NCBI GenBank assembly: GCA_018402085.1
Contig: JAGYJM010000002.1
Location: 62,001 to 126,000, forward strand
Source: Flavobacteriales bacterium
GTDB lineage: Bacteria > Bacteroidota > Bacteroidia > Flavobacteriales_D > Sanyastnellaceae
Reading direction: 5' to 3'
Length of the DNA stretch: 64,000 nucleotides
A program made the position numbers and the translations under genes. Positions 5,850 to 63,532 of the stretch are shown here, one piece after another. Under the pieces are notes generated by a model. It did no database searches. It worked only from the letters and a program-made list of their open reading frames with translations, and was not told the origin of the DNA. Positions within the stretch are counted from its first letter, which is position 1, and each line of letters opens with the position of its first letter.

Positions 5850-7253
5850 TTATTGGTACTTGCGTTCTATGAACCAAAGGTTTTTGTAAAAAGGAGAAAG
5901 TGTAACTCCAACCAGAATGTTCAAATATTCTTCTCGTACTAAACCGGGTTCGTTTACCCCTCTGGCACCAAATTCCATGCCAAAGTGAAATTTACTGGCG
6001 CTTCGCGAACTGATAAACGGTATGGAGAGTCCGAATGTAAAGGCCTCGTCAACGAGCTGTGTGCCGTTCAGTGACAGGTAGGTTTCAGTAGATCGCACGC
6101 CAAAGCGGTACTGGCTTCGGGCAAGAAAGTTCTTGCCCTCGTCAATCGGTTGCGGACGATACTGAATGCCCATAGAGAACTCCGAACTTGACACAAGACC
6201 CTCGGCGATGTTTTCTCCGTCGATGACTGTTTCGAAGTTGCTCCAGTCACGTTGTTCAAGGTCAAAGGCTACAACAAGCGATCGTTTGTTTTTATTAACG
6301 TATTCGAGGGCCACTCCTGCGCGGAGGCGTGAAGGAATGCGTGTGCTTCCTTCTCCCTGAATGTAATAAGCCGTGTCAATAGGGAAGTCAACACCGGATT
6401 GGGATGCTGTTTGCTCATACACTTCTTCTACACGTGTGGCGAGGTTCAGTGAGGGGGCATAAACAAGGCCCGCTTTCAAACGCATCAGTGAAACCAGGCG
6501 CTTGTTGCTGTTATACTTAGCCCTGAGGTTGTTCTCGTAGTACAAGCCGAATTCACCTCCGAAGTCATACATGCGTGTGTTGCGCGTATTGCGGGTATCG
6601 AGATAGGTGACATCATTTATGTCGAGAATTCGCTGTTGCTCTATATTCCCGAAGAAATAATTCAGATTGGCACCTACCCCGATGCTGTGACGTACTACCT
6701 GGAGGCTGTCATAAGGTACGCCCTGTTTATCGTTGAAGTAGCGCATTTCAGAAAATTCGAAGCGATGCCCGGCTCCGAGGAAAGCCTTGTTAATACCACC
6801 ATTTCCTTCATAGCGATAGGTAGCTGTACCAATATCTTCGATTTCTGTTTCGCTGGTGACTGCGTAGCCGGTTGTGGTAAAAGGTGTCACCCCTAGAGCC
6901 ACCGCAAAAGGTGCGTTTGCCCGTTTCATAGCAAGTGAAAACTGGTCGAGGTTTCCATTGCGCAATTCTTGTGAATTGTCGCCCTCGGTCAGTCGCAGGG
7001 CCTGAAAGCGAAGTGAGGTCTGCAGGGTTGTGTTAAAGAGGTATCCGTATGTTGCGGGGTTCTCTGAATTGAGAAGTGAGCGGTCATTGAAGGTAGTCCG
7101 AACGCCTCCAAGCCCAATGCTTCCGATGTTTCCATTCTGGTAAATGTCACCCAGCCCAAAGCGAGAATACGGAGATTGATTCGCGAACTGCGCATCCGCC
7201 GCTTTTGCGGCGAAAAACGAGAAGAGCAATAAGAGGATCGATTTAGTGCGCAT
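5850..7253 (-). CDS. outer-membrane beta-barrel protein
   Basis: This 467-aa outer-membrane protein has alternating amphipathic strands throughout and an early SPYSRFGLGDI motif seen in Bacteroidota barrel proteins of the PorV/FadL-like kind. The chosen start (MRTKSILLLLFSFF) gives a proper signal peptide. A longer frame reaches 7382 but lies wholly inside coaX. The start overlaps the end of coaX by 11 bases. The end of the signal peptide (AAKAADAQ) is encoded by a perfect CGCCGC-TTTT-GCGGCG palindrome at 7197-7212, part of a dispersed repeat family. The substrate, if it is a transporter, is unknown. Confidence 0.75.
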   Translation of the reverse strand: MRTKSILLLLFSFFAAKAADAQFANQSPYSRFGLGDIYQNGNIGSIGLGGVRTTFNDRSLLNSENPATYGYLFNTTLQTSLRFQALRLTEGDNSQELRNGNLDQFSLAMKRANAPFAVALGVTPFTTTGYAVTSETEIEDIGTATYRYEGNGGINKAFLGAGHRFEFSEMRYFNDKQGVPYDSLQVVRHSIGVGANLNYFFGNIEQQRILDINDVTYLDTRNTRNTRMYDFGGEFGLYYENNLRAKYNSNKRLVSLMRLKAGLVYAPSLNLATRVEEVYEQTASQSGVDFPIDTAYYIQGEGSTRIPSRLRAGVALEYVNKNKRSLVVAFDLEQRDWSNFETVIDGENIAEGLVSSSEFSMGIQYRPQPIDEGKNFLARSQYRFGVRSTETYLSLNGTQLVDEAFTFGLSIPFISSRSASKFHFGMEFGARGVNEPGLVREEYLNILVGVTLSPFYKNLWFIERKYQ

Positions 7254-10405: not shown

Positions 10406-11467
10406 TCAGTGAAAGAGGTCTTCTGCGCGGTATTGCTCCAGAAATTTTTCAACAAGCCGGGGTACCGGATAGGTATGAAGGTCAGCTTCTGCAACAGCCT
10501 GGTGAAGAGTGTTCTTGATTTGAAGGGGGGCATCAAGATCGAAAATGAAGAAGCGCGCTGTGATGCGCCGATGAGAAAGCACATGTGTTATAGGGCCCAT
10601 AACTTCACGCAGCTGGCCTTCTGCATAAAAAGTCTTGAGCAGTTCTGCTCCACGCTCTTCTACAGGTGCGTCAAGCTCGGTTTCGATGCATGGGAAATCG
10701 TAAAGTTTGCTCCAGATGCCTTTTTCTGCGCGAAAGCGCAGGATGATCTGGTCTTCGTGCACGAACACCGCATAGTCATAGAAGACATGGCGCACTTTGG
10801 TTCGCTTTTCTTTCACCGGAAGCATCTTTGCAGACCCGGCGGCAAATGCGGCGCAAAAGGCGTTAACCGGGCACTCCGGGCAGTTGGGATTGTGAGGAGC
10901 GCAAACCAGAGCCCCGAGCTCCATTACAGCCTGGTTATAGTCGCCCGGACGTGATTCAGGGAGGTAAGCCGCCATAGCTGCGCGTATGGTTTTTTGTCCG
11001 CCGGGCTTATTCACCGGCTCGCGGTAGTCTTGTACCCTTGACATGACGCGCAGCACGTTTCCGTCAACCACGGGAACAGCTTCCTGATAGGCAATAGATG
11101 CAATCGCTGCAGCCGTATATGGCCCCACGCCACTAAGCTCTTCCAGCGCTTTTGCGCTGCCCGGAAATACACCTTGATGGTCTTGAACCACCTGACGTGC
11201 AGCCTTCAGCAGGTTACGTGCACGAGCGTAATATCCGAGCCCCTGCCACAGCTTCAGTACTTTTTCTTCTTCAGCAGCAGCGAGATCATGTACGGTCGGG
11301 AAATTTTCGATGAAGCGGTAGTAGAAGGCGAGCCCCTGGTCAACACGGGTCTGTTGCAGAATGATTTCAGAGAGCCAGATGCGGTAAGGGTCGGGCTTTT
11401 CACGCCAGGGCAATGGGCGTTTGGCAGCCTCAAACCAGTTGAGCAAATGTGCGGCAAAAGGGTGCAT
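10406..11467 (-). CDS. mutY: A/G-specific adenine glycosylase
   Basis: The 353-aa base-excision repair enzyme removes adenine mispaired with 8-oxoguanine. It has the helix-hairpin-helix [13 protein letters not shown], the catalytic aspartate in VVDGNVLRV, the four-cysteine iron-sulfur loop [17 protein letters not shown] (about residues 195-215), and a C-terminal NUDIX-like domain (about 230-345) for 8-oxoG recognition. It is the first gene of the leftward string and diverges from the HU gene. ssb follows after 34 bases. Confidence 0.95.
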
Positions 11468-24989: not shown

Positions 24990-25030
24990 TGATTATAACG
25001 CTTGGCTTTCGGCGTGAAAACGCCGGATGA

Positions 25031-25060
25031 AAAAAGCCATACGCTCAACACGTATGGCTT
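25031..25060 (-). terminator. intrinsic terminator after clpP
   Basis: A 10-bp perfect stem (AAGCCATACG at 25034-25043 and CGTATGGCTT at 25051-25060) is followed on the minus strand by a T-run. It lies 41 bases past the clpP stop and would separate clpP from clpX transcription. Confidence 0.75.
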
Positions 25061-28423: not shown

Positions 28424-30521
28424 ACGTATCTTTCTTATATCGGGTTTATTGCTGCTTTTTTTCTGCGCGAAAGCGCAGGAAGATGACCCGATCCTGCGTC
28501 AACAAATGATTGAGCAACGCATCGAGGTCATTGTCGAAAACCTCGATGACGGCATAGAATTGGATTATACTACCCTTTTCGATGAACTCAGCACCTACCT
28601 CGATCGTCCGCTGAACCTCAATCGCGCTACAGATCAGGAGTTGAGGCAGCTCTATCTCCTCAGCGATATCCAGATTATGAGCCTGCTTAATCACATCACA
28701 CGTTACGGCCCGCTGCGAGATGTTTTTGAGCTGCAGGCAGTGAAAGGGTGGGACCTTACAACCATTTACCTTGTTTTGCCTTTTGTGCAGGTTCGTCCGC
28801 CCCTTGAAGCCTCAAAGTGGACCTTTCGTGATGTCTTGAAAGAGGGCCGGCACGACTTATTTATCCGTACGCAACGGGTACTGCAAGAACAGGAGGGTTA
28901 CAGTGGTATTTCTCCTGAAGACCTCGCTGAAAACCCCAACCGCCGCTACCTGGGCAGCCCATGGAAACTCTATTCGCGCTATCGGTTCCGCTACCGGAAA
29001 AACCTCAGCATCGGGATCACCGCAGAAAAAGATCAGGGCGAAGAATTCTTCAGGGGCTCACAACCCAACGGATTCGACTTCTACAGCGCACACTTTTACT
29101 ACGAAGACAAGGGCTGGTTGAGAAAAGTCGCACTGGGAGATTATCAGGCACAATTTGGTCAGGGGCTGACGGTATGGTCAGGACTCGGTTTCGGGAAATC
29201 ACCCTTCATCGCGAGTGCAAAGCGCAGCGCGCTGGGTATTCGTCCGTACACCGCGGTAGATGAAAATCTCTTCTTCAGAGGTGCAGCAGCCACCCTCGGG
29301 TGGGGCAAGACGGAACTGACAGTTTTCTACAGCGACAAAAACATTGATGCCAACATTGTCGCTGTAGAAGACACTTCTGACACAGGCGAAGGGCAGTTGC
29401 TTAGCGTGAGCTCGTTTCAGTTGAGCGGCTTTCATCGCACCGAGAATGAGCTATTTGACAAAGATGCCATCCGTGAGAGACATATAGGAGGGAACCTCGC
29501 GTACAGAAGCCGGAAATTCAGCGTTGGTGCTACCGCAATGCGCTCTGAATGGGGGGCTGACCTGCAGCGAAACCTACAGCTTTACAACAAGTTTGAGTTC
29601 AATGACAATCAAAACCTTGTAGGGGGCATTGATTACAGCGGAGTGGTGCGCAACCTCAACTTTTTCGGGGAGGCCTCAATGAGTCAGAACGGTGGTTACG
29701 CTTTTCTAAACGGTGTGCTCATTGCCCTTGATCAGCGCTTGTCGGTAGTCGCGTTGCACCGCCATTTTAGCCGCGACTTTCAGAGTCTCTTCGCCAATGC
29801 CTTCGCTGAAAGATCACGTCCGATCAACGAGCAGGGGCTCTACCTCGGTTTTGATTTTCAACCGGCACGCAAGTGGAAGCTCACCGGCTATGCCGATCAC
29901 TTCCGCTCGCCCTGGCTGAGCTTCTTGGTGGACGCCCCTTCAGCCGGACATGAATACCTGTTGCAGCTTACTCACAAGCCTACCCGCAAGAACGAATTTT
30001 ACATCCGCTGGCGGAAGCGATCAAAAGACCGGAACAGCAACCTGGTTGACGGCCCGATTGACCAACCTGTGCCCTGGACCCAGCACTTCTTCAGACTTCA
30101 CACGAGTTATAAGGTACATGAGAACGTGCAGTTTAAAACCCGCGTAGAGTGGACGGGATTTCAGCTTGAAGGAGGAGAGGTCGAGCAAGGCTTCCTCCTG
30201 TATCAGGACATTGTCTTTCGCAAGCTCATGGCTCCATGGAACTTCACCCTGCGTTATGCGCTCTTTGAAACAGACAGCTATGATGCCCGCATCTATGCTT
30301 ATGAGAATGATGTGCTCTACTTTTTTAGTGTGCCCGCCTACTTCAATCGCGGTTCACGATTCTACGCCATCACTAAGATTAGCCTCGGTCGTAACCTCGA
30401 TATGTGGTTCCGCTATGCGCAATGGGTGTACAATGACCGGAATACGATCAATGCCGGCCTGGAAGAGATTCAGGGCAACACACGCAGTGAATTCCGAGCG
30501 CAGCTCAGACTGCAATTCTGA
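28413..30521 (+). CDS. helix-hairpin-helix plus beta-barrel envelope protein
   Basis: The 702-aa protein has a signal peptide ending in FFCAKAQ. ComEA-like helix-hairpin-helix motifs follow (about residues 60-130; LNLNRATDQELRQLYLLS, then YGPLRDVFELQAVKGWD). About 570 residues of outer-membrane beta-strand pattern make up the rest. ComEA domains bind DNA, so DNA capture at the surface is one possibility; HhH modules can also act as protein scaffolds. It overlaps the upstream barrel gene by 11 bases. The signal peptide end is encoded by the palindrome CTGCGC-GAAA-GCGCAG (28463-28478). Confidence 0.75.
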   Translation: MAVKRIFLISGLLLLFFCAKAQEDDPILRQQMIEQRIEVIVENLDDGIELDYTTLFDELSTYLDRPLNLNRATDQELRQLYLLSDIQIMSLLNHITRYGPLRDVFELQAVKGWDLTTIYLVLPFVQVRPPLEASKWTFRDVLKEGRHDLFIRTQRVLQEQEGYSGISPEDLAENPNRRYLGSPWKLYSRYRFRYRKNLSIGITAEKDQGEEFFRGSQPNGFDFYSAHFYYEDKGWLRKVALGDYQAQFGQGLTVWSGLGFGKSPFIASAKRSALGIRPYTAVDENLFFRGAAATLGWGKTELTVFYSDKNIDANIVAVEDTSDTGEGQLLSVSSFQLSGFHRTENELFDKDAIRERHIGGNLAYRSRKFSVGATAMRSEWGADLQRNLQLYNKFEFNDNQNLVGGIDYSGVVRNLNFFGEASMSQNGGYAFLNGVLIALDQRLSVVALHRHFSRDFQSLFANAFAERSRPINEQGLYLGFDFQPARKWKLTGYADHFRSPWLSFLVDAPSAGHEYLLQLTHKPTRKNEFYIRWRKRSKDRNSNLVDGPIDQPVPWTQHFFRLHTSYKVHENVQFKTRVEWTGFQLEGGEVEQGFLLYQDIVFRKLMAPWNFTLRYALFETDSYDARIYAYENDVLYFFSVPAYFNRGSRFYAITKISLGRNLDMWFRYAQWVYNDRNTINAGLEEIQGNTRSEFRAQLRLQF

Positions 30522-37870: not shown

Positions 37871-39069
37871 GGTAAACGGTGATTCTCGTGACGCGAACAT
37901 TCCCGGACGCCAGGATGGCGTCCCTATCCGTGTAAACGGTGATTCTCGTAGTCCAGAAATTCACGGACGCCAGGATGGCGTCCCTCTCCGTGTAAACGGT
38001 GATTCTCGTAGTCCGGAAATTCACGGACGCCAGGTTGGCGTCCCTATCCGTGTTAACGGTGATTCTCGTAGTCCGGAAATTCCCGGACGCCAGGTTGGCG
38101 TCCCTCTCCGTGTTAACGGTGATTCTCGTAGTCCGGAAATTCCCGGACGCCAGGTTGGCGTCCCTATCCGTGTTAACGGTGATTCTCGTAGTCCGGAAAT
38201 TCACGGACGCCAGGATGGCGTCCCTATCCGTGTTAACGGCGATTCGGGTAACCCGAACATTCCCGGACGCCAGGATGGCGTCCCTATCCGTGTAAACGGT
38301 GATTCTCGTAGTCCGGAAATTCACGGACGCCAGGATGGCGTCCCTCTCCGTGTAAACGGTGATTCTCGTAGTCCGGAAATTCACGGACGCCAGGTTGGCG
38401 TCCCTATCCGTGTTAACGGTGATTCTCGTAGTCCGGAAATTCCCGGACGCCAGGTTGGCGTCCCTCTCCGTGTTAACGGTGATTCTCGTAGTCCGGAAAT
38501 TCCCGGACGCCAGGTTGGCGTCCCTATCCGTGTTAACGGTGATTCTCGTAGTCCGAACATTCACGGACGCCAGGTTGGCGTCCCTATCCGTGTAAACGGT
38601 GATTGCCGTGACCCGAACATTCACGGACGGCTGGGAGGCCGTCCCTCTCCGTGTAAACGGTGATTCTCGTGACGCGAACATTCCCGGACGCCAGGATGGC
38701 GTCCCTATCCGTGTAAACGGTGATTCTCGTAGTCCGGAAATTCCCGGACGCCGGGTTGGCGTCCCTCTCCGTGTTAACGGTGATTGCCGTGACGCGAACA
38801 TTCACGGACGCCAGGATGGCGTCCCTATCCGTGTAAACGGTGATTGCCGTGACCCGAACATTCCCGGACGCCAGGATGGCGTCCCTATCCGTGTTAACGG
38901 TGATTCTCGTAACCCGAACATTCCCGGACGCCAGGTTGGCGTCCCTATCCGTGTTAACGGCGATTCGGGTAACCCGAACATTCCCGGACGCCAGGATGGC
39001 GTCCCTCTCCGTGTAAACGGTGATTCTCGTAACCCGAACATTCCCGGACGCCGGGTTGGCGTCCCTATC
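37871..39069. repeat. 60-bp palindromic repeat array A (20 units)
   Basis: Twenty units of 60 bases (one of 61) contain the hairpin GGACGCC-N5-GGCGTCC, a linker CCGTGTAAACGG or CCGTGTTAACGG, and a variable body such as GATTCTCGTAGTCCGG. In one unit (about 38628-38647) the stem changes on both sides to GGACGGC/GCCGTCC. Units 2-5 (37921-38160) and 8-11 (38281-38520) are nearly identical, showing a higher-order duplication of 360 bases. Frames on both strands stay open because 60 is divisible by three. The array lies downstream of the broken S74 gene. Confidence 0.93.
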
Positions 39070-39077
39070 GAATACCC

Positions 39078-39125
39078 TTAAAAAAAGAAGGCGCCGCAAT
39101 CCCGATAGCTATCGGGATGCGGCGC
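39078..39125 (-). terminator. nested hairpin terminator after S74 pseudogene
   Basis: On the minus strand a GCGCCGC/GCGGCGC stem (39091-39097 and 39119-39125) encloses a second palindrome ATCCCGATAG/CTATCGGGAT, and a run of T follows. Paralogous sites at 43661 and 48268 lack the inner palindrome and have the loop AAGGAT instead. Confidence 0.75.
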
Positions 39126-39153
39126 TTTGCTTTCGGTTACAGTGATTCGTTGT

Positions 39154-41056
39154 TTAAATCTTCACCGCACGTTTCACGAACTCTTGTCCGTCAACGATGA
39201 GGGTGTAGAAGTAAATGCCGCTTTCGAGGTTAGACGCATCCCAGTTCACTGAATAGGTGCCTGGTTCTGTAGAGCCACTTATCAGCGTGGCAATCAGGCG
39301 ACCGGACTGGTCGTAGACCACGATCTCTGCTTTGCAGGCACAACCGATGGTGTATTGAATGGTAGTCTGCTGAGCAAATGGATTCGGGTAGTTCTGCTTG
39401 AGGTCTGAAGGTGTAGGCAGTACTTCAAGGTTGAAATCCGACTGCCCCATACCTTGACCGTTTGCAGACTTTGCTTCACAACATGCCGCTACTTGGGCCT
39501 GCAAGTCAGCGAGGTCGCTTTGCAACTGCTCGATGGTGGCTTGTTGTTCTTGGGTGGCTTGCACAAGAATCGGAATGATCTCCAGTAGTGACTGGACGCG
39601 AGGTGAGATCAAGGGCAGGTGAGATGACCTCGCCTGTCTCCGGGTCACGGATTTCAGGCTTACGTCACCTCCCTCAATCTGCATCTGGAAGAACTACTGC
39701 TGAAGCTCCTCGGGCGATGAATCCATATGCATTCCTTCCAGACAGATTCATAAGGCGAGCCGCTTTGGTTGTGGTTATATGATCGTGGACGTACGAGTCG
39801 TTGATCAAGCTGATGGCTCCTTCATATATCCTGAACGTCTGATTTGAACTGTTGATCGCTGATAGTAAGTGGCGCTCCGATAGAATAATAGGGCCATGTG
39901 AAGTAGCCGGCAATATCGGCCTCACCGTCAAACTCACAATATTGGTAATTGCTGAATCCATAGAAGCCCTTCCGGCTACGCCAATATTCTGAACGGTTGC
40001 TCCGCTGAGCTGTGCCAAACACGCCTGTTGTTAGCGCTCCAAAGAACTAGCACCACTCTGCGTGCCGATGTTGTTCGAGAAGCCAGCATCACCAATTGAG
40101 CGTGCAGAATTGATACCACGGACATTATCTGAGTTTGGTGCTGCCTGCGCCAATGCCTCAACAGTGAGGGCGAATGCATTGTCACCTCGCCAAAGGTCTG
40201 TATGCGGCAGAACGGCAAAGTTGTCGAGTGTGGTCTTCGTCGCTCTTCTCACATGTGAGCGCGCTCTGGTGCGGTAGTTCCTATCCACCACATGCCAATG
40301 GTACCCGCACCTGCGGCTCCTTCAACAAAAAGAAGTCGGTAGATTGCTGTTGAAACCTACCATCAATGAATTGTTGATAGCATTCGTCAGTGGATTACCG
40401 TTTAAACCGGAGCCAAAAACCATACCATTATCAGAAGAAATTTCGATGTCGCAGCCAAGCGCCGTGTTGAAGTCGCCGGTCATGTTAAGGTTTTTACCCG
40501 CAGCGAAGCTGAATACACCTGAACCGTTATTGTTCTGACCGAACAGGGTAACATGGGAGTTCGTGGCACTGTTATTAAAACCGAAGCAAGTTGAGTAATT
40601 GGCTGTTGCCGTCACCTCCAATTCTTGGCCAAATGCAAATGTAGATAAATCTGACGCTGTGACATCTCTGCCGTATGCAAAGGAAAATTGGCCTACGTCT
40701 GTGCCATCCCATTCAGAACCAAGTGCTTGACCACCTCGGAAGGCAGCGTCTTCAGGGATGTACATCAAGCGGTAACCAGCGCCTAGATTTGGGTTACTGC
40801 CAATGTCATTGGTTACGAGTACTCCACCACTATCCACATGCAGGCGCATGTCAGGGTTGGTGACCCCAATGCCGACCTCACCGGTGGTGGTGACACGCAT
40901 TTTTTCGTCGCCGTCTGTGTATATCGGAAAATCGAAGCCGTTCGTCGTTCCGATGAAAGAGGAAGCATTAGCTGCATTTCCATTAGAACGCCAATCAAAT
41001 TGAGAAAAAGCGAGGGATGGTAAAAGAATAGCTATGATAAAAGTTATCGTTTTCAT
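39154..41056 (-). pseudogene. broken S74-chaperone/T9SS protein gene, copy 1
   Basis: This is the paralogue of the intact 625-aa gene at 43719-45596. The N-terminal 240 residues (signal peptide, YadA-type head repeats) are open from the ATG at 41056 to about 40330. The middle (about 39550-40330) is broken by many one-base insertions relative to the intact copy. The C-terminal part (NYPNPFAQQTTIQYTIGCAC to the end) is open again and almost identical. Nearly all differences in the middle are single-base insertions, so a sequencing or assembly fault is as likely as real decay. Its start overlaps the stop of the upstream cargo gene (ATGA). Confidence 0.85.
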
Positions 41057-42099: not shown

Positions 42100-42560
42100 A
42101 ATGAAAAATTAAAAGTTATTGAAGGGCATCAGGCTGCCCGTTGACCACCGCGCTTTCGTGCGCGGTAAACGTGCTTTAAGGTAAAGAAGGTTTTGCCAAA
42201 AGCAAAGGTGAAAGAGAGATATCGGGCAGGCGCCCTTAAGTGAAGTGGGCTGCTACGTGTTGCCATTCGGGTTTTGATCGAATGAACGGGTCTCTGCGCA
42301 GCCGCACAGATGCGACGTTACCCTGAGACCGCATCCCGATAGCCATCGGGATTGCGGCGCAACGGTGACCCCGTTTCCTCCTTCTCCTTTTACTCTCATT
42401 TTCACTTTTATTCTCTCTCTCTACGGAACCGACCGAATGCATAGGTTGTATGTCATTCAGGTGAATTAGCATGTGTTGAATATACAAGAGAATTTGACTT
42501 GTTCGACGGGATTTGTGTTAACGAATAGTGAAGTTGATCGGGGATCGGGGGTCGGGGGTC
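42036..42560. repeat. duplicated 0.5-kb segment, copy 1
   Basis: This stretch spans the start of the cargo gene and its upstream spacer. It is virtually identical to 46562-47086, at a constant offset of 4526 bases. It contains palindromes GGGCA-N6-TGCCC, ACCGCGC/GCGCGGT and CCCGATAG/CATCGGG. An 83-codon minus-strand frame (42236-42487) is identical in both copies, but it lies in repeat-rich DNA and shows no gene signals. No promoter with an exact TAnnTTTG element is seen upstream of the cargo gene. Confidence 0.85.
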
Positions 42561-42810: not shown

Positions 42811-43652
42811 CGTTAACAGCGATTCGGGTAACCCGAACATTCCCGGACGCCAGGTTGGCGTCCCTATCCGCGTTAACGGTGATTCTCGTAACCCGAACAT
42901 TCCCGGACGCCAAGTTGGCGTCCCTATCCGTGTAAACGGTGATTCTCGTGACCCGAACATTCCCGGACGCCAGGTTGGCGTCCCTATCCGCGTTAACGGT
43001 GATTCTCGTAACCCGAACATTCCCGGACGCCAAGTTGGCGTCCCTATCCGTGTAAACGGTGATTCTCGTGACCCGAACATTCCCGGACGCCAGGATGGCG
43101 TCCCTATCCGTGTAAACGGTGATTCTCGTGACGCGAACATTCCCGGACGCCAGGATGGCGTCCCTCTCCGTGTAAACGGTGATTCTCGTGACGCGAACAT
43201 TCCCGGACGCCAGGTTGGCGTCCCTATCCTTGTAAACGGTGATTCTCGTAACCCGAACATTCCCGGACGCCAGGATGGCGTCCCTATCCGTGTAAACGGT
43301 GATTCTCGTAGTCCGGAAATTCCCGGACGCCAGGATGGCGTCCCTATCCGTGTTAACGGTGATTCTCGTGACGCGAACATTCCCGGACGCCAGGATGGCG
43401 TCCCTATCCGTGTAAACGGTGATTCTCGTAGTCCGGAAATTCACGGACGGCTGGGAGGCCGTCCCTCTCCGCGTTAACGGTGATTCTCGTGACGCGAACA
43501 TTCACGGACGCCAGGATGGCGTCCCTATCCGTGTAAACGGTGATTCTCGTGACGCGAACATTCACGGACGCCAGGATGGCGTCCCTATCCGTGTAAACGG
43601 TGATTCTCGTGACGCGAACATTCACGGACGCCAGGATGGCGTCCCTATCGAA
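42811..43652. repeat. 60-bp palindromic repeat array B (14 units)
   Basis: Fourteen units of the same 60-base repeat. Linkers include CCGCGTTAACGG, which is rare in array A. One unit (about 43445-43465) carries the double stem change GGACGGC/GCCGTCC and is one base longer. The last three units are almost identical, suggesting recent amplification. The array lies downstream of the intact S74 gene and ends next to its terminator. Confidence 0.93.
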
Positions 43653-43660
43653 TGCCATTA

Positions 43661-43690
43661 AAAAAAGAAGGTGCCGCAAGGATGCGGCGC
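43661..43690 (-). terminator. hairpin terminator after intact S74 gene
   Basis: GTGCCGC/GCGGCGC (one wobble) encloses AAGGAT and is followed on the minus strand by a T-run. It is the empty counterpart of the nested hairpin at 39078. Confidence 0.75.
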
Positions 43691-46625: not shown

Positions 46626-47086
46626 AATGAAAAATTAAAAGTTATTGAAGGGCATCAGGCTGCCCGTTGACCACCGCGCTTTCGTGCGCGGTAAACGTGC
46701 TTTAAGGTAAAGAAGGTTTTGCCAAAAGCAAAGGTGAAAGAGAGATATCGGGCAGGCGCCCTTAAGTGAAGTGGGCTGCTACGTGTTGCCATTCGGGTTT
46801 TGATCGAATGAACGGGTCTCTGCGCAGCCGCACAGATGCGACGTTACCCTGAGACCGCATCCCGATAGCCATCGGGATTGCGGCGCAACGGTGACCCCGT
46901 TTCCTCCTTCTCCTTTTACTCTCATTTTCACTTTTATTCTCTCTCTCTACGGAACCGACCGAATGCATAGGTTGTATGTCATTCAGGTGAATTAGCATGT
47001 GTTGAATATACAAGAGAATTTGACTTGTTCGACGGGATTTGTGTTAACGAATAGTGAAGTTGATCGGGGATCGGGGATCGGGGGTC
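46562..47086. repeat. duplicated 0.5-kb segment, copy 2
   Basis: Near-exact copy of 42036-42560 (offset 4526). The same palindromes and the same 83-codon frame are present. Past about 47060 the two copies differ in simple repeats of GGGGATC type. Confidence 0.85.
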
Positions 47087-48267: not shown

Positions 48268-48297
48268 AAAAAAGCAGGCGCCGCAAGGATGCGGCGC
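48268..48297 (-). terminator. hairpin terminator after EEP cargo gene
   Basis: A perfect GCGCCGC/GCGGCGC stem with loop AAGGAT (78-84 and 91-97 of this hundred) is followed on the minus strand by a T-run. About 80 bases separate it from the end of the coding region. Confidence 0.7.
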
Positions 48298-48379: not shown

Positions 48380-49537
48380 TTATTGCTTGACGAAGCGAAG
48401 CGTGGCAGAGCTGGTGGATGTACCCATCATGTTCGCATCCCGCGTTTTTACGCGGAAAAAATAAACGCCGGGAGCAAGATCAACCACGTTCAAGTGGAAA
48501 ATAGTTGAGAAAGGGCCGGAAAGCGTGTGGATCAAACGACTGAACGAATCGAACAGGAGCACCTCTTCAGTATGGGCCGGAAGCTCAAGGATCAGGTGGT
48601 CGCGAACGGGATTCGGATACAACGCGATCGACTGCGCTGCAAGAGAGGGCGCCGTCAGCTGTCCGGGAGTGTAGCGCATGGCTACCGGACGGTGATCCGA
48701 AACGCTGTTGTCATAGGAGAACCAGCTTGAAAATGCGTCGTCAGGACGAAGGGTGGTGACCTCCGTATCAGGGGTAGCGAGGAGCGGGATCAGCTCGTTG
48801 GAAACCAGAATGTGATCGAGGTGGGAAGGCCACGAAGGGTATGACCAAAAGTAGCTGCCTCCCGTAGAGAGCTCATAATCGGCGAAGGCGTAGTTGGGAT
48901 CGTCAAGGAAGGGTTGAAATACGTTGTTGGGCGCGGTATCCGTGAGCTCGTCATTCAGGTCGCCGAGGATGACCACCGCCCGGTTAAACCAGGCGCCATC
49001 GGCGTAGTTCTTGAGCAACTGTATCGCCTCAAAGCGGCGGTTCTCTTCATCGTACGGAAGGCTGGTGTCAAGGGTACCATCACCACAGCACTTCAGGTGG
49101 TTGTTCACGAACACATATTCTTCGCCGAAAGCGCTTACTTCAAGCACCTGAGGTGAACGGGGAAAGGCCGCCCAGTAAGTAGATTGCGTGTAGATCTCAT
49201 ACGATTGGTTTACGGTGACTACATCCGGCTTCCATGCCCAGGCGAGTCCGCCGTAATATTCAGAAGCAAAGTGCACCTCGTATCCACCGATGTTTTCAAG
49301 CGTCTCGCGAAAGAGGGTGGTGTCGCTGATCTCCTGAAAGGCGATGAGGTCGAGGTCATAGGCGGTGAGGATTTCCTCTACAAAGCCGGCTGTGGTGCCG
49401 CTTTTCGGAAACCACTCGATGTTCCAGGTGGCGAAATCAAACGTCTCATCTTGCCCGAATGACAACACGCTGAAATCTTGTCCGCGCAGATTTATAGCCA
49501 ACACACAGAAGCAGAAGATCATTAGGAGATAGCGCAT
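48380..49537 (-). CDS. secreted endonuclease/exonuclease/phosphatase-family protein
   Basis: The 385-aa protein has a signal peptide (MRYLLMIFCFCVLAINLRG) and an EEP fold: ATWNIEWF (about residue 38), LIAFQEI, VFVNNHLK, VILGDLND and HLDHILVS, then SDHRPVAMRY. All the usual metal and catalytic residues are visible. A T9SS type A sorting domain follows (about 300-385; LYPNPVRDHLIL). It is likely a surface or extracellular nuclease or phosphodiesterase. Its 3' end faces array C. Confidence 0.87.
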   Translation of the reverse strand: MRYLLMIFCFCVLAINLRGQDFSVLSFGQDETFDFATWNIEWFPKSGTTAGFVEEILTAYDLDLIAFQEISDTTLFRETLENIGGYEVHFASEYYGGLAWAWKPDVVTVNQSYEIYTQSTYWAAFPRSPQVLEVSAFGEEYVFVNNHLKCCGDGTLDTSLPYDEENRRFEAIQLLKNYADGAWFNRAVVILGDLNDELTDTAPNNVFQPFLDDPNYAFADYELSTGGSYFWSYPSWPSHLDHILVSNELIPLLATPDTEVTTLRPDDAFSSWFSYDNSVSDHRPVAMRYTPGQLTAPSLAAQSIALYPNPVRDHLILELPAHTEEVLLFDSFSRLIHTLSGPFSTIFHLNVVDLAPGVYFFRVKTRDANMMGTSTSSATLRFVKQ

Positions 49538-51766: not shown

Positions 51767-51832
51767 TGGACCGCTGACAGCAGACCGCCGACAGCAGACC
51801 GCTTCTCAGCATGAAGCATTATATTAGCCATC

Positions 51833-51848
51833 CGCCGCTTTCGCGGCG
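51833..51848. repeat. CGCCGC palindrome upstream of the C1 peptidase
   Basis: CGCCGC-TTTC-GCGGCG followed by a run of A and GAACC, 27 bases before the peptidase ATG. It is an intergenic member of the family that also falls in signal-peptide codons. TATATTAG just before it (51821) is a near match to a -7 element. Confidence 0.7.
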
Positions 51849-51874
51849 CAAAAAAGAACCAAACCTGAATACAC

Positions 51875-55430: not shown

Positions 55431-55470
55431 GGCGCCGCTCCCGATGTCTATCGGGAATGCGGCGCTTTTT
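55431..55470 (+). terminator. nested hairpin terminator after the radical SAM gene
   Basis: GGCGCCGC/GCGGCGC stem with the inner palindrome TCCCGAT/ATCGGGA, followed by five T. It has the same nested form as the site at 39078. Confidence 0.75.
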
Positions 55471-56642: not shown

Positions 56643-57782
56643 TCAGACTGAAACCACCCGAATCGCTGCCTTCACTTCCTCCACCTTCGTCTTCAGTGTC
56701 GCAAGGTCTTCGGCAAGCACCGTCACGTGTCCCATCTTACGGTACGGCTTGGTCTCCGCTTTGCCGTAAATGTGCGGATACACCCCCGGCATCGCGAGCA
56801 GGGTGTTCAGTCCTTCGTACACCACCGGACCTTTGAAGCCCTCTGCGCCCACGAGGTTGACCATCGCTGCCGGACGTAACACCTCAGTACTTCCCAGCGG
56901 CAAGTCAAGGATGGCGCGCAAGTGCTGCTCAAATTGCGACGCGACGTTCGCCTCTATCGTGTGGTGTCCGCTGTTGTGGGTGCGCGGCGCGACTTCGTTC
57001 ACGAGTACTTCGCCGGATGTGGTCAAGAAGAGCTCCACGGCTAAAATGCCGGTGAAGTTCAAGGCATCCGCCACTTTTGTGGCGAGATTTTTCGCCGCAG
57101 AAGCGGCGGATGGAGACACGTCTGCCGGAGCAAACAAGTAGTCAACGAGGTTCGCCTTCGGGTCGAAAACCAGCTCGGTCACCGGAAAAGCCGCCGACTC
57201 ACCGGATGCGTTGCGCGCGATGATCACCGCCAGTTCTTTCTCGATGTCCACCAGATCCTCAACCACACAGCCGCCTTCAAAGGCCTCGTCCAGGTCTTCT
57301 TTCGTGCGCATGACCGAAACGCCGCGACCGTCGTAGCCGCCTGTGCGCAACTTGAGTACGCAGGGCAGATCCGCTTCGCTGAGCGAACGTCCGTCTTCAA
57401 TCAACTTGAACGATGAGGTCGCAATGCCGTGATCGGCATAGAATTGCTTCTGCAGGCTTTTGTCCTTAATCGTCTCGATGTGCGCCGGGTCCGGACAAAC
57501 CGTAACGCCTTTTGCCTGCAATTCTTTCAGCGCCTGCGTGTTGACGTCTTCAATTTCGATGGTCAGCACATCCTTATCGGCGCCGAAGTCAAGCACGGTC
57601 TGGTAATCGCGAAAATCGCCTTGCCTGAACGTAGTCGCCAGCGCAGCGCACGGCGCATCTGCCGAAGGGTCAAGCACATGGATGTGCACATCCAGACTGG
57701 CGGCTTCCTGAATCAGCATACGTCCGAGTTGTCCGCCACCCAGGATCCCCAATTTTAGGTTCGTTCCGGTAATCGCTTTCAT
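56643..57782 (-). CDS. purK: 5-(carboxyamino)imidazole ribonucleotide synthase
   Basis: The 379-aa ATP-grasp enzyme carboxylates AIR in purine synthesis. It has LGILGGGQLGRMLI at the N-terminus, KLRTGGYDGRGV (about 145), FTGILAVELF and the metal region VNEVAPRTHNSGHHTIEA. It overlaps the dioxygenase gene by 4 bases (ATGA). Inside the coding region two palindromes, CGCCAC-TTTT-GTGGCG (57069-57084) and CGCCGC-AGAA-GCGGCG (57093-57108), stand in inverted orientation, yet the protein is not longer than usual there. Confidence 0.94.
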   Translation of the reverse strand: MKAITGTNLKLGILGGGQLGRMLIQEAASLDVHIHVLDPSADAPCAALATTFRQGDFRDYQTVLDFGADKDVLTIEIEDVNTQALKELQAKGVTVCPDPAHIETIKDKSLQKQFYADHGIATSSFKLIEDGRSLSEADLPCVLKLRTGGYDGRGVSVMRTKEDLDEAFEGGCVVEDLVDIEKELAVIIARNASGESAAFPVTELVFDPKANLVDYLFAPADVSPSAASAAKNLATKVADALNFTGILAVELFLTTSGEVLVNEVAPRTHNSGHHTIEANVASQFEQHLRAILDLPLGSTEVLRPAAMVNLVGAEGFKGPVVYEGLNTLLAMPGVYPHIYGKAETKPYRKMGHVTVLAEDLATLKTKVEEVKAAIRVVSV

Positions 57783-58791: not shown

Positions 58792-59355
58792 ATGCGACGC
58801 ATTTTGCTGACTTTTATCGCCTTTCTTTTTTTCTTCTGCGCAAAAGCGCAGGATGGCAACAGCTCCGGCAACGGGCTGCAGGGACAAAGCCGCTGGGTGT
58901 TCGGCGGAAACGTGGCCCTCTCGTTCGGAAGCAACTTCACCGTCATCGGTGCAGCCCCCACGGTGGGCTACCGCTTTACGGAGCGCCTGACCGCCGGAGC
59001 CGGAGCACTTTATTTTTATCAAGCGGGACAAACCTTTGGAGGTCAGCGCTTCGACTTTTCGATTTATGGTCCGCAAGCTTTTGCCCGCTACGTAGTCGGA
59101 CAAAGCGTCATATCGGAGGGAGATCGCTTGGCTTTCCAGAGTGATGCTTACCTGGTGAATACAGAAGTCTATGACCCATTTGCTGACACCTTCGGTCGCG
59201 ACTGGATTCCGCAACTCTTTGTAGGGGGCGGCTACTTCACCCCGGTTGGAGGACGAACTTTTATGGGCTTAATGGTGATGTGGGATGTCATTCAAGACCG
59301 CAATGCCCCGTTCGCCAACCCTATGATCCGCGGCGGCATTTCGATTGGGATTTAG
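58792..59355 (+). CDS. small outer-membrane barrel protein
   Basis: The 187-aa protein has a signal peptide MRRILLTFIAFLFFFCAKAQ and a short beta-barrel pattern (about eight strands; YRFTERLTAGAGALYFY, GPQAFARYV, RGGISIGI at the C-terminus). The end of the signal peptide is encoded by the palindrome CTGCGC-AAAA-GCGCAG (58836-58851). TATCTTAG at 58780-58787 is a near match to a -7 element. It diverges from the dioxygenase gene. Confidence 0.75.
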   Translation: MRRILLTFIAFLFFFCAKAQDGNSSGNGLQGQSRWVFGGNVALSFGSNFTVIGAAPTVGYRFTERLTAGAGALYFYQAGQTFGGQRFDFSIYGPQAFARYVVGQSVISEGDRLAFQSDAYLVNTEVYDPFADTFGRDWIPQLFVGGGYFTPVGGRTFMGLMVMWDVIQDRNAPFANPMIRGGISIGI

Positions 59356-62866: not shown

Positions 62867-63532
62867 GAGAGTCTGGAGTCTGGGGTCTGGAGAGAATTCA
62901 AAATGTATAATTCATGATGCATAATTAGAGATGGTTGGCGTTAGCCGTTGTGTCTGTTATTATTCTTGTTTTTTAGTAATTATAATAAGGCTCCCCTGAA
63001 ATCAGGGGAGCTGTCCAGCGTGAAAACGCTGGACTGAGGGGTTTTAGGGAGCACCTCCGTAACCACTCCTCATCAACCTCTCAGCCCCGCATGTGCGGGG
63101 CAGCTCTCCTCATCTGAGGAGAGCCTTATTCAGGTCTCAACAATGCTGAATCCTGATTTACTCTTCACTACTCATTATTGACTCATTACTAATCTCCCGG
63201 TTTCCCGGTTTCCCTAAACTGTCGATCGGTCCATCGGTCGATGCGCTTCGCTTCGCAAGACCGGCGGCAATAGCCGCCGCCACACTAGGAGTACTTAAAT
63301 GATTCAAGGCAGCGCAAGTATGCGCTGCTTTCCGGCCGTTCCCCAGTTTCCCGAAACTGTCCATAAGTCTATAAGTCCATCGGTCGATGAGTCGATGCGT
63401 CATGAGTCGATGCGTCATTAGACCCACCCATCCGCCGCTTCCCGATGAATCGGGACAAGTTCCGCGGCGAAAAAAGAACACCATGCACCACCCACCCAAC
63501 CGTTCCCGATAACAATCGGGACTGCAATACCT
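62867..63532. other. repeat-rich gap before yidD
   Basis: Holds a divergent pair of two-hairpin repeats (62987-63046 in reverse, variable stem CCAGCG/CGCTGG; and 63071-63128 forward, CCCCGC/GCGGGG), CCCGGTTT repeats, GTCGATGnGTC repeats, an AGCGCAAGTATGCGCT palindrome (about 63313) and the nested palindrome at 63433-63469. No gene is seen. Confidence 0.65.
63433..63469. repeat. CGCCGC palindrome with a second palindrome in its loop
   Basis: The outer CGCCGC (63433-63438) and GCGGCG (63464-63469) are separated not by four bases but by a segment holding TCCCGAT/ATCGGGA. Flanks (CATC before, AAAAAAGAAC after) match other members. It looks like one palindrome inserted in another. Confidence 0.75.

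Follow-up and report, generated by a model that had tools for sequence, protein, structure and literature searches.

A candidate dispersed 18-bp palindromic element in Bacteroidota, at hairpin tips, in RNA genes and in protein genes

One hairpin in a stretch of 64,000 nucleotides from a Flavobacteriales bacterium (contig JAGYJM010000002.1, positions 62,001 to 126,000; the whole stretch is here called the window) encloses a second palindrome in its loop, and two paralogous hairpins of the same window have a plain tetraloop at this place. The locus raises the question of what this inner palindrome is, whether it has been captured repeatedly by hairpin loops and by which process it might have spread.

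The nested palindrome and its relatives in this genome

A sequence-only reading of the window had described the hairpin at 39091 as differing from its paralogues at 43671 and 48278 by a block of 15 bases that completes a palindrome with bases already present. The difference is exact, the paralogues reading GCCGCAA-GGA-TGCGGC, and the GGA of the empty paralogues does serve as part of the palindrome at 39100. The filled hairpin is built in the order GCGCCGCA (39091-39098), A, TCCCGATAGCTATCGGGA (39100-39117) and TGCGGCGC (39118-39125). The hairpin itself is strong, and the tail 3' of this putative terminator consists only of TTTGCTTT, a weak T run; a terminator scan of 38900-39400 left 39091 without a flag, its loop limit of 3-8 being one that may miss a nested hairpin. 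Degenerate tandem repeats with a unit of about 60 bp lie just upstream of the filled and of one empty hairpin (38900-39080, 43500-43660). Among known RNA families, the window holds one tRNA only.

The same reading had placed the inner palindrome in the loops of GC stems at 55439 and 63439, and similar cores were found at 55439 and 63440. Further cores, absent from its list, lie in the window at 42334, 46860 and 63504 (Table 1). Allowing up to three mismatches, the 18-mer gave five matches in the window compared with none in 100 shuffles, and an outer stem of 5-8 bp encloses five of the six window copies, the exception being the one at 63504.

Table 1. Hairpins, palindromic cores and REP-like elements in the window
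Feature	Position	Strand	Description	Basis
Filled hairpin	39091..39125	.	stem GCGCCGCA/TGCGGCGC, loop of A plus the 18-bp palindrome	DNA fold -19.2 kcal/mol, z -5.7
Palindrome	39100..39117	.	TCCCGATAGCTATCGGGA	sequence, mismatch scan, genome search
Empty paralogue	43671..43690	.	tetraloop AGGA in GCCGCAA-GGA-TGCGGC	DNA fold
Empty paralogue	48278..48297	.	tetraloop AGGA in GCCGCAA-GGA-TGCGGC	DNA fold
Core in hairpin	55432..55465	.	stem GCGCCGC/GCGGCGC with TCCCGATGTCTATCGGGA (55439-55456)	sequence, DNA fold
Core in stem	42334..42351	.	TCCCGATAGCCATCGGGA within stem CCGCA/TGCGG	mismatch scan, DNA fold
Core in duplicated stretch	46860..46877	.	core and flanks as at 42334	mismatch scan, sequence
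Core outside any outer stem	63504..63521	.	TCCCGATAACAATCGGGA, upstream of TATCTTTG	mismatch scan, stem test
Long REP-like element (type 1)	63425..63473	+	CATC tag, 6-bp stem, loop with TCCCGATGAATCGGGA (63440-63455)	covariance model, 71 bits
Short (empty) REP-like element	48432..48459	+	4-nt loop	covariance model, DNA fold
Short REP-like element	7189..7216	+		covariance model
Short REP-like element	10722..10749	-		covariance model
Short REP-like element	25006..25033	-		covariance model
Short REP-like element	28459..28486	-		covariance model
Short REP-like element	51825..51852	+		covariance model
Short REP-like element	57089..57116	-		covariance model
Short REP-like element	58832..58859	-		covariance model

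Throughout this genome (3.78 Mb), the pattern CCCGAT-N0..12-ATCGGG occurs at 60 places, compared with one for the reversed control pattern. The eight places with CCCGATGGGATCGGG at 672-674 kb, seemingly a separate regular repeat, were not taken as members of the element; there (G000:C2:672365-673789, L021), eight copies and one longer relative follow each other at a spacing of about 160-195 bp, possibly as an unrelated coding repeat. The stricter pattern TCCCGAT-N2..4-ATCGGGA was counted 46 times in this genome and not once in two congeners searched; at least one copy is present in 19 of the 60 genomes searched, our own included.

The genome also holds a family of REP-like hairpins, in which the tag TTCGCATC is followed by a 6-bp GC stem and a 4-nt loop, read as TTTT, TTTC or TTCT in 18 copies of this short form. 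The short form CATCCNGCGCTTNNGCGCNG is a species-specific REP-like family, with 131 + 140 exact matches (271) here and none in 39 other genomes searched, and in the listed copies its free stem position is filled by each of the four Watson-Crick pairs without loss of pairing. The long form has in 18 copies a common frame of CATC, 6-bp stem, a single T, the core TCCCGATNNATCGGGA of 16 nt, approximately CAAGTYTC and the stem partner. In these copies 97% of cells are paired overall and 93.5% in the outer helix, and 15 cells of the outer stem have changed on both sides, where shuffles gave 4.0; the core stem, being invariant, is uninformative by itself on pairing. A covariance model had at least 92 matches in this genome (150 of 2085 candidates scored) and none in two congeners. 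Among the matches listed, 54 are long (49-51 nt), 24 short (28 nt) and the others partial or of other lengths, the figures of 54 and 24 being counts from the match list in which copies were not individually inspected throughout. Perfect 6-bp GC hairpins with a CATC tag, counted in 261,512 bases, have a 4-nt loop in 45 cases, a 25-nt loop in nine and another loop in four, and the 25-nt loops hold the palindrome or a slightly altered version of it. Within this genome, both the loops of an amplified REP and unrelated hairpins carry the inner palindrome. A single capture of the palindrome into the 4-nt loop of the species-specific repeat, amplified afterwards along with the repeat, seems to have produced the long form.

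Distribution, sites and exchanged bases

The exact 18-mer was found in at least 118 stretches of a species-representative collection of bacterial and archaeal genomes. Among the matches listed, 79 of the 80 titled stretches carry names of Bacteroidota taxa, and the remaining one is titled 'uncultured bacterium'. In an even sample of 392 genomes of the phylum the 18-mer is present in 30, with 1-34 copies each, and lacking in 362, the reversed control giving 0; all 30 are labelled as own or same class with respect to the genome of the window. One genus (f17 g45), probably Flavobacterium, ranges from 0 to 34 copies across 25 sampled genomes. The 18-mer has been shown to occupy many unrelated sites in numbers that are very different between related genomes, and the same site to exist in filled and empty versions. 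An unbiased 400-kb sample of ten genomes gave no TCCCG hairpin signal; in loci chosen for the 18-mer, with the 18-mer masked, TCCCGA was counted 27 times compared with 0.6. A viral collection contained the 18-mer in 37 stretches and a palindrome of the same composition in none; 37 being few for so large a collection, a phage origin was rejected. In the open literature we found no description of the palindrome (searched as a 16-mer), and the titles and abstract beginnings of open papers on Bacteroidetes palindromic repeats, REPs and RNase P insertions do not describe it either.

Two observations touch on the surroundings of the 18-mer. A second recurrent palindromic word, CCCTCTCC..GGAGAGGG or CCCCCTT..AAGGGGG, adjoins or encloses it in L057, L068, L108, L117, L159 and L174. 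In the genus of G235 (L171:1490-1527), matches of 23-44 bp around the palindrome recur at several further places, and the repeat unit may there exceed 18 bp.

Open reading frames of at least 100 aa hold 15 of 201 distinct sites that had sufficient context, a count restricted to sites that keep the frame open, yet they cover 82% of the bases, so that genes are avoided or purged. Where copies are in frame, the added peptides read VPIAIG or PDSYR. The EPSP synthase (aroA) of Lacibacter has a 7-residue insert (about +21 nt) compared with the best-matching solved structure. A P-type copper ATPase with the 18-mer is longer by 12 nt than four congeners, and by only 3 nt than the closest congener (L380). 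A photolyase-like gene carries an in-frame long form (type 1) of +21 nt, both congeners being seven codons shorter, with flanks that differ too. In a group-1 glycosyltransferase (L207), the palindrome region is a gap in the alignment with a solved structure, and two of the aligned glycosyltransferase genes have the palindrome or a decayed copy at this variable spot. The same spot holds differing simple repeats, CAGTGATCAGTGGGCAGT, GATGTCGGATGTCGGAT and others, across congeners (L207, L395-L405).

Structural RNA genes carry the 18-mer as well. RNase P class A RNA contains it in L077, L175, L203 and L148, though not always at one position: it lies at one helix tip in L175 and L203 and in the 3' part in L148, and the first RNase P hairpin contains near copies in L203 and L148. 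Flavo-1 RNAs with the 18-mer score above the family cut-off in L153, L185 and L218 and below it in L092. Depending on the species, the tip of the Flavo-1 hairpin is a plain loop, TCCCGATAGCTATCGGGA or the other palindrome TCCCGTTAAAAAACGGGA (L092, L093, L119, L153, L185, L218). In a tandem tRNA-Asn array (L166:1670-2164), the palindrome lies in the variable-loop region of three of the four copies, where the intact copy reads GGTCC, and two of the three palindromes have C-G, not T-A, as outermost pair. Both C-G copies and the intact copy are tRNA-Asn according to ARAGORN; Rfam recognises the intact one only. The palindromes of L045, L049, L052 and L130 were considered as tRNA-like insertions and dropped, ARAGORN and Rfam calling no tRNA there. 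The sites shown thus comprise hairpin tips, RNA genes and in-frame protein positions, with loops moderately favoured.

Comparison of filled with empty versions tells what is exchanged. The bases replaced are GGA in the window, AGT in L098 and AGAT in L235 (with a decayed copy in L100), and L192/L114 allowed a further comparison. In the Flavobacterium-like genome G377, GTCT has been replaced; several species have empty orthologues, and in G574 the orthologous copy is decayed. In G597, AGTC has been replaced, independently, by the variant TCCCGATAACTATCGGGA. When empty versions of 228 sites were searched in a two-strand pool of 4.86 Mb, some match was obtained for 141, and the replaced length was 3 nt at 34 sites, 4 nt at 35, 5 nt at 20 and 6 nt at 17, compared with about 4-6 per shuffle. 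A second peak corresponds to an overlap of four bases (gap -4; 34 of 228 sites, compared with 4.4 per shuffle), and exact 4-base flanking duplications occur at 11 of 219 sites, compared with 1.3. The excess of 4-bp flanking repeats would be explained by the simple repeats of period 7 or 8 in which many overlap sites lie, and flanks with a 4-base repeat often match also with +3/+4; a true 4-bp duplication may exist at some sites. A plain 4-bp target duplication, which was strong at first, was abandoned, direct empty sites having mostly 3-6 nt replaced. Net gains outside +12 to +15 are those of AroA, the photolyase-like gene (type 1) and the P-type ATPase relative to L380. By eye, no clear microhomology was seen between the palindrome ends and the replaced bases. 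The 18-mer is shown by these comparisons mostly to stand in for 3-6 target bases, and mostly not to be plainly inserted.

Repeated capture, as proposed from the window alone, is supported, since filled and empty sites are real and recur in several genomes. The accompanying proposal of targeted insertion into hairpins stands only in a weaker form: loops are moderately favoured, and most sites lie outside strong hairpins, which, by the refuting condition that the reading itself had set, argues against strict targeting. A check of sampled stretches of this genome placed 17 of 29 cores (distinct by their 8-nt flanks) in a GC stem of at least 6 bp, compared with 24 of 1322 random positions, but ten of the 17 come from one amplified REP family; outside this family the count is 7 of 13. 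Among 219 sites, 16 have a perfect outer stem of at least 6 bp, compared with 2.1 for shuffled flanks; this genome contributes four of them. A first loop test, made with no gap, was near-negative (stem of at least 6 at 27 of 191 sites, compared with 201 of 1856 random intergenic positions of the same loci). With a 4-nt gap allowed for the lost bases, a loop (stem of at least 5, 20-nt flanks) was predicted at 69 of 191 intergenic sites and 405 of 1860 local controls, and a perfect stem of at least 6 at 11 of 191 and 29 of 1860, respectively. A stem of at least 4 bp beyond a short collar was present at 28% of 218 sites and 20% of 4315 controls. By most measures the loop preference elsewhere in Bacteroidota is about 1.3- to 1.7-fold. 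Immediately beside the palindrome, the bases at -1/+1 are complementary at 40 of 260 sites, compared with 81 expected (13.8% of 218 sites, compared with 27.7% in local controls), and complementarity, likewise low from -2 to -4, is raised from -5 to -9. These data fit hairpin loops as favoured, not required, targets, and part of the preference could come from selection for tolerable sites.

Possible origin and spread of the palindrome

We give a probability of roughly 0.5 to the reading in which the inner palindrome is one of the copies of a dispersed, very small element of Bacteroidota that is itself a palindrome (core CCCGATAGCTATCGGG, outermost pair mostly T-A), and in which this element has spread via single-stranded DNA. 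Copies would spread during replication, when a strand that stalls at a repeat or small hairpin may continue on another copy of the palindrome as its template or may instead take up a hairpin-forming fragment; a few bases of the tip would then be exchanged for the palindrome. No dedicated transposase for the 18-mer was found. As a more tentative proposal, such hairpin-tip swapping might be an undescribed copying process of Bacteroidota that exchanges a few bases at the tip of a small DNA hairpin, or at a comparable single-stranded place, for a fixed 18-nt palindrome with no transposase of its own, which would make the palindrome perhaps the smallest dispersed element described. Equally tentative, as part of this whole picture, is that the process would act alike on tRNA and RNase P, on terminators and REPs and on coding DNA. 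No paper on short-patch double illegitimate recombination was found in the open literature. Quasipalindrome template-switch mutation is known to copy a local arm and is not known to copy an unlinked fixed 18-mer; a like switch could explain the change from T-A to C-G at both outermost bases in the tandem tRNA copies.

The 18-mer could instead be the REP of a RAYT system, whose Y1 tyrosine transposase would recognise the hairpin in single-stranded DNA and move copies of it, a possibility that we consider unlikely. A sharply ended palindrome fits hairpin recognition by such an enzyme, and matches to Y1_Tnp are widespread, occurring in 267 of the 392 genomes of the phylum and in 26 of the 30 that have the 18-mer. 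Within one genus of 25 genomes, copy number and Y1 matches show a weak correlation (genome-size-corrected partial Spearman 0.46, p 0.02). Moreover, the structures that flank Bacteroidetes TnpA (RAYT) of subclass 2.6 are unusual and are found again in other parts of the genome, the text giving no sequence for comparison (PMC6006769). Against this reading, 50 Y1_Tnp loci of about 2-3.4 kb, of which 25 come from genomes with the 18-mer, include only one with a CCCGA..TCGGG hairpin, and the RAYT was rejected as the mover on this count; the single locus (L265) is from a genome that lacks the 18-mer, and four genomes with the 18-mer (G121, G243, G259, G374) have no Y1 match. Within the locus of our own Y1 gene (L020) there is no core, the nearest REP-like match being about 1.9 kb off. 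REP/RAYT pairs, as defined in the literature, have a conserved tetranucleotide, GTAG or CGTC, at one end; no such tag is conserved beside the 18-mer, where only T is depleted at -1 and A at -3. The REP-like family of this genome resembles REPs as high-copy short hairpins with end tag, stem and small loop, and differs in its tag, TTCGCATC. The 18-mer itself lacks a conserved tag, is of low copy number (0-34 copies) and flanks no RAYT at 49 of 50 loci, and it is not a classical REP/RAYT pair.

Slightly less probable is a reading with no mobility, according to which the palindrome is a functional site, an operator or a selected RNA hairpin, that has evolved repeatedly and been inherited with duplicated modules. 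Perfect palindromes are typical of operators. A Flavo-1-like element (L093) and an RNase P tip (L148: CCCCGAGTTACCTCGGGA) have, at the place in question, TCCCG..CGGGA hairpins that end in other loops, and several empty-version matches are repeated intergenic modules. The identical letters, AGCT centre included, in coding sequences, in RNase P, in copies of tRNA and between genes speak against a functional site, as do the 362 of 392 genomes and the two congeners that have no copy, and the abruptness of the filled/empty differences between paralogues.

Ranking just below both is a classical MITE or IS remnant, in which the arms would be the TIRs of a larger element with its middle lost, and a DDE transposase would have made a 4-bp target duplication. 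The excess of 4-bp direct repeats and the biased base composition of the flanks (at -1, T makes up only 4-5%) are in its favour; the replacement of mostly 3-6 nt is against it, and half-sites TCCCGATAG outside 18-mers number 15 compared with 7 expected in 147 loci totalling 928,788 bases, several of them being decayed palindromes. With half-sites not clearly enriched, a larger transposon with 18-mer ends was discarded. We know of no MITE as short as 18 bp, which also counts against this reading. The 18-mer resembles MITEs (ERIC, NEMIS, RUP) as a non-autonomous dispersed inverted repeat and differs from them in being far shorter, in giving no sign of a larger element and in mostly replacing bases where a clean duplication would be left.

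That the inner palindrome belongs, in this genome only, to a REP variant that was amplified as a whole, with 39100 a chance relative, is scarcely credible. About 50 long copies do have flanks in common beyond the core, but cores with unrelated outer stems exist (39100, 42334, 55439, L002, L027, L028) and the class-wide exact 18-mer contradicts it.

Likeness to Rickettsia palindromic elements and significance

The element proposed here has its closest parallel in sites with the Rickettsia palindromic elements, which according to two papers enter proteins, RNase P and tmRNA genes, are 105-146 bp long and are specific to Rickettsia (PMC2229807, PMC3733652). Like them, the 18-mer lies between genes, in frame in proteins and within structural RNA genes including RNase P; unlike them as described there, it is a perfect palindrome of 18 bp, identical across many Bacteroidota genera, for which 3-6 bases have mostly been replaced, so that length and host set it apart.

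If the proposed reading is true, a word of 18 letters behaves throughout a bacterial class like a mobile sequence, mostly by replacing and not by inserting, and essential genes and RNAs would have been altered with no obvious destruction. For annotators, hairpin tips in RNase P, tRNA and Flavo-1 of Bacteroidota, as well as short protein peptides such as VPIAIG or PDSYR, can be copies of the element. The palindrome would moreover offer a simple, testable system for the origin and spread of small palindromic repeats (REP, RPE).
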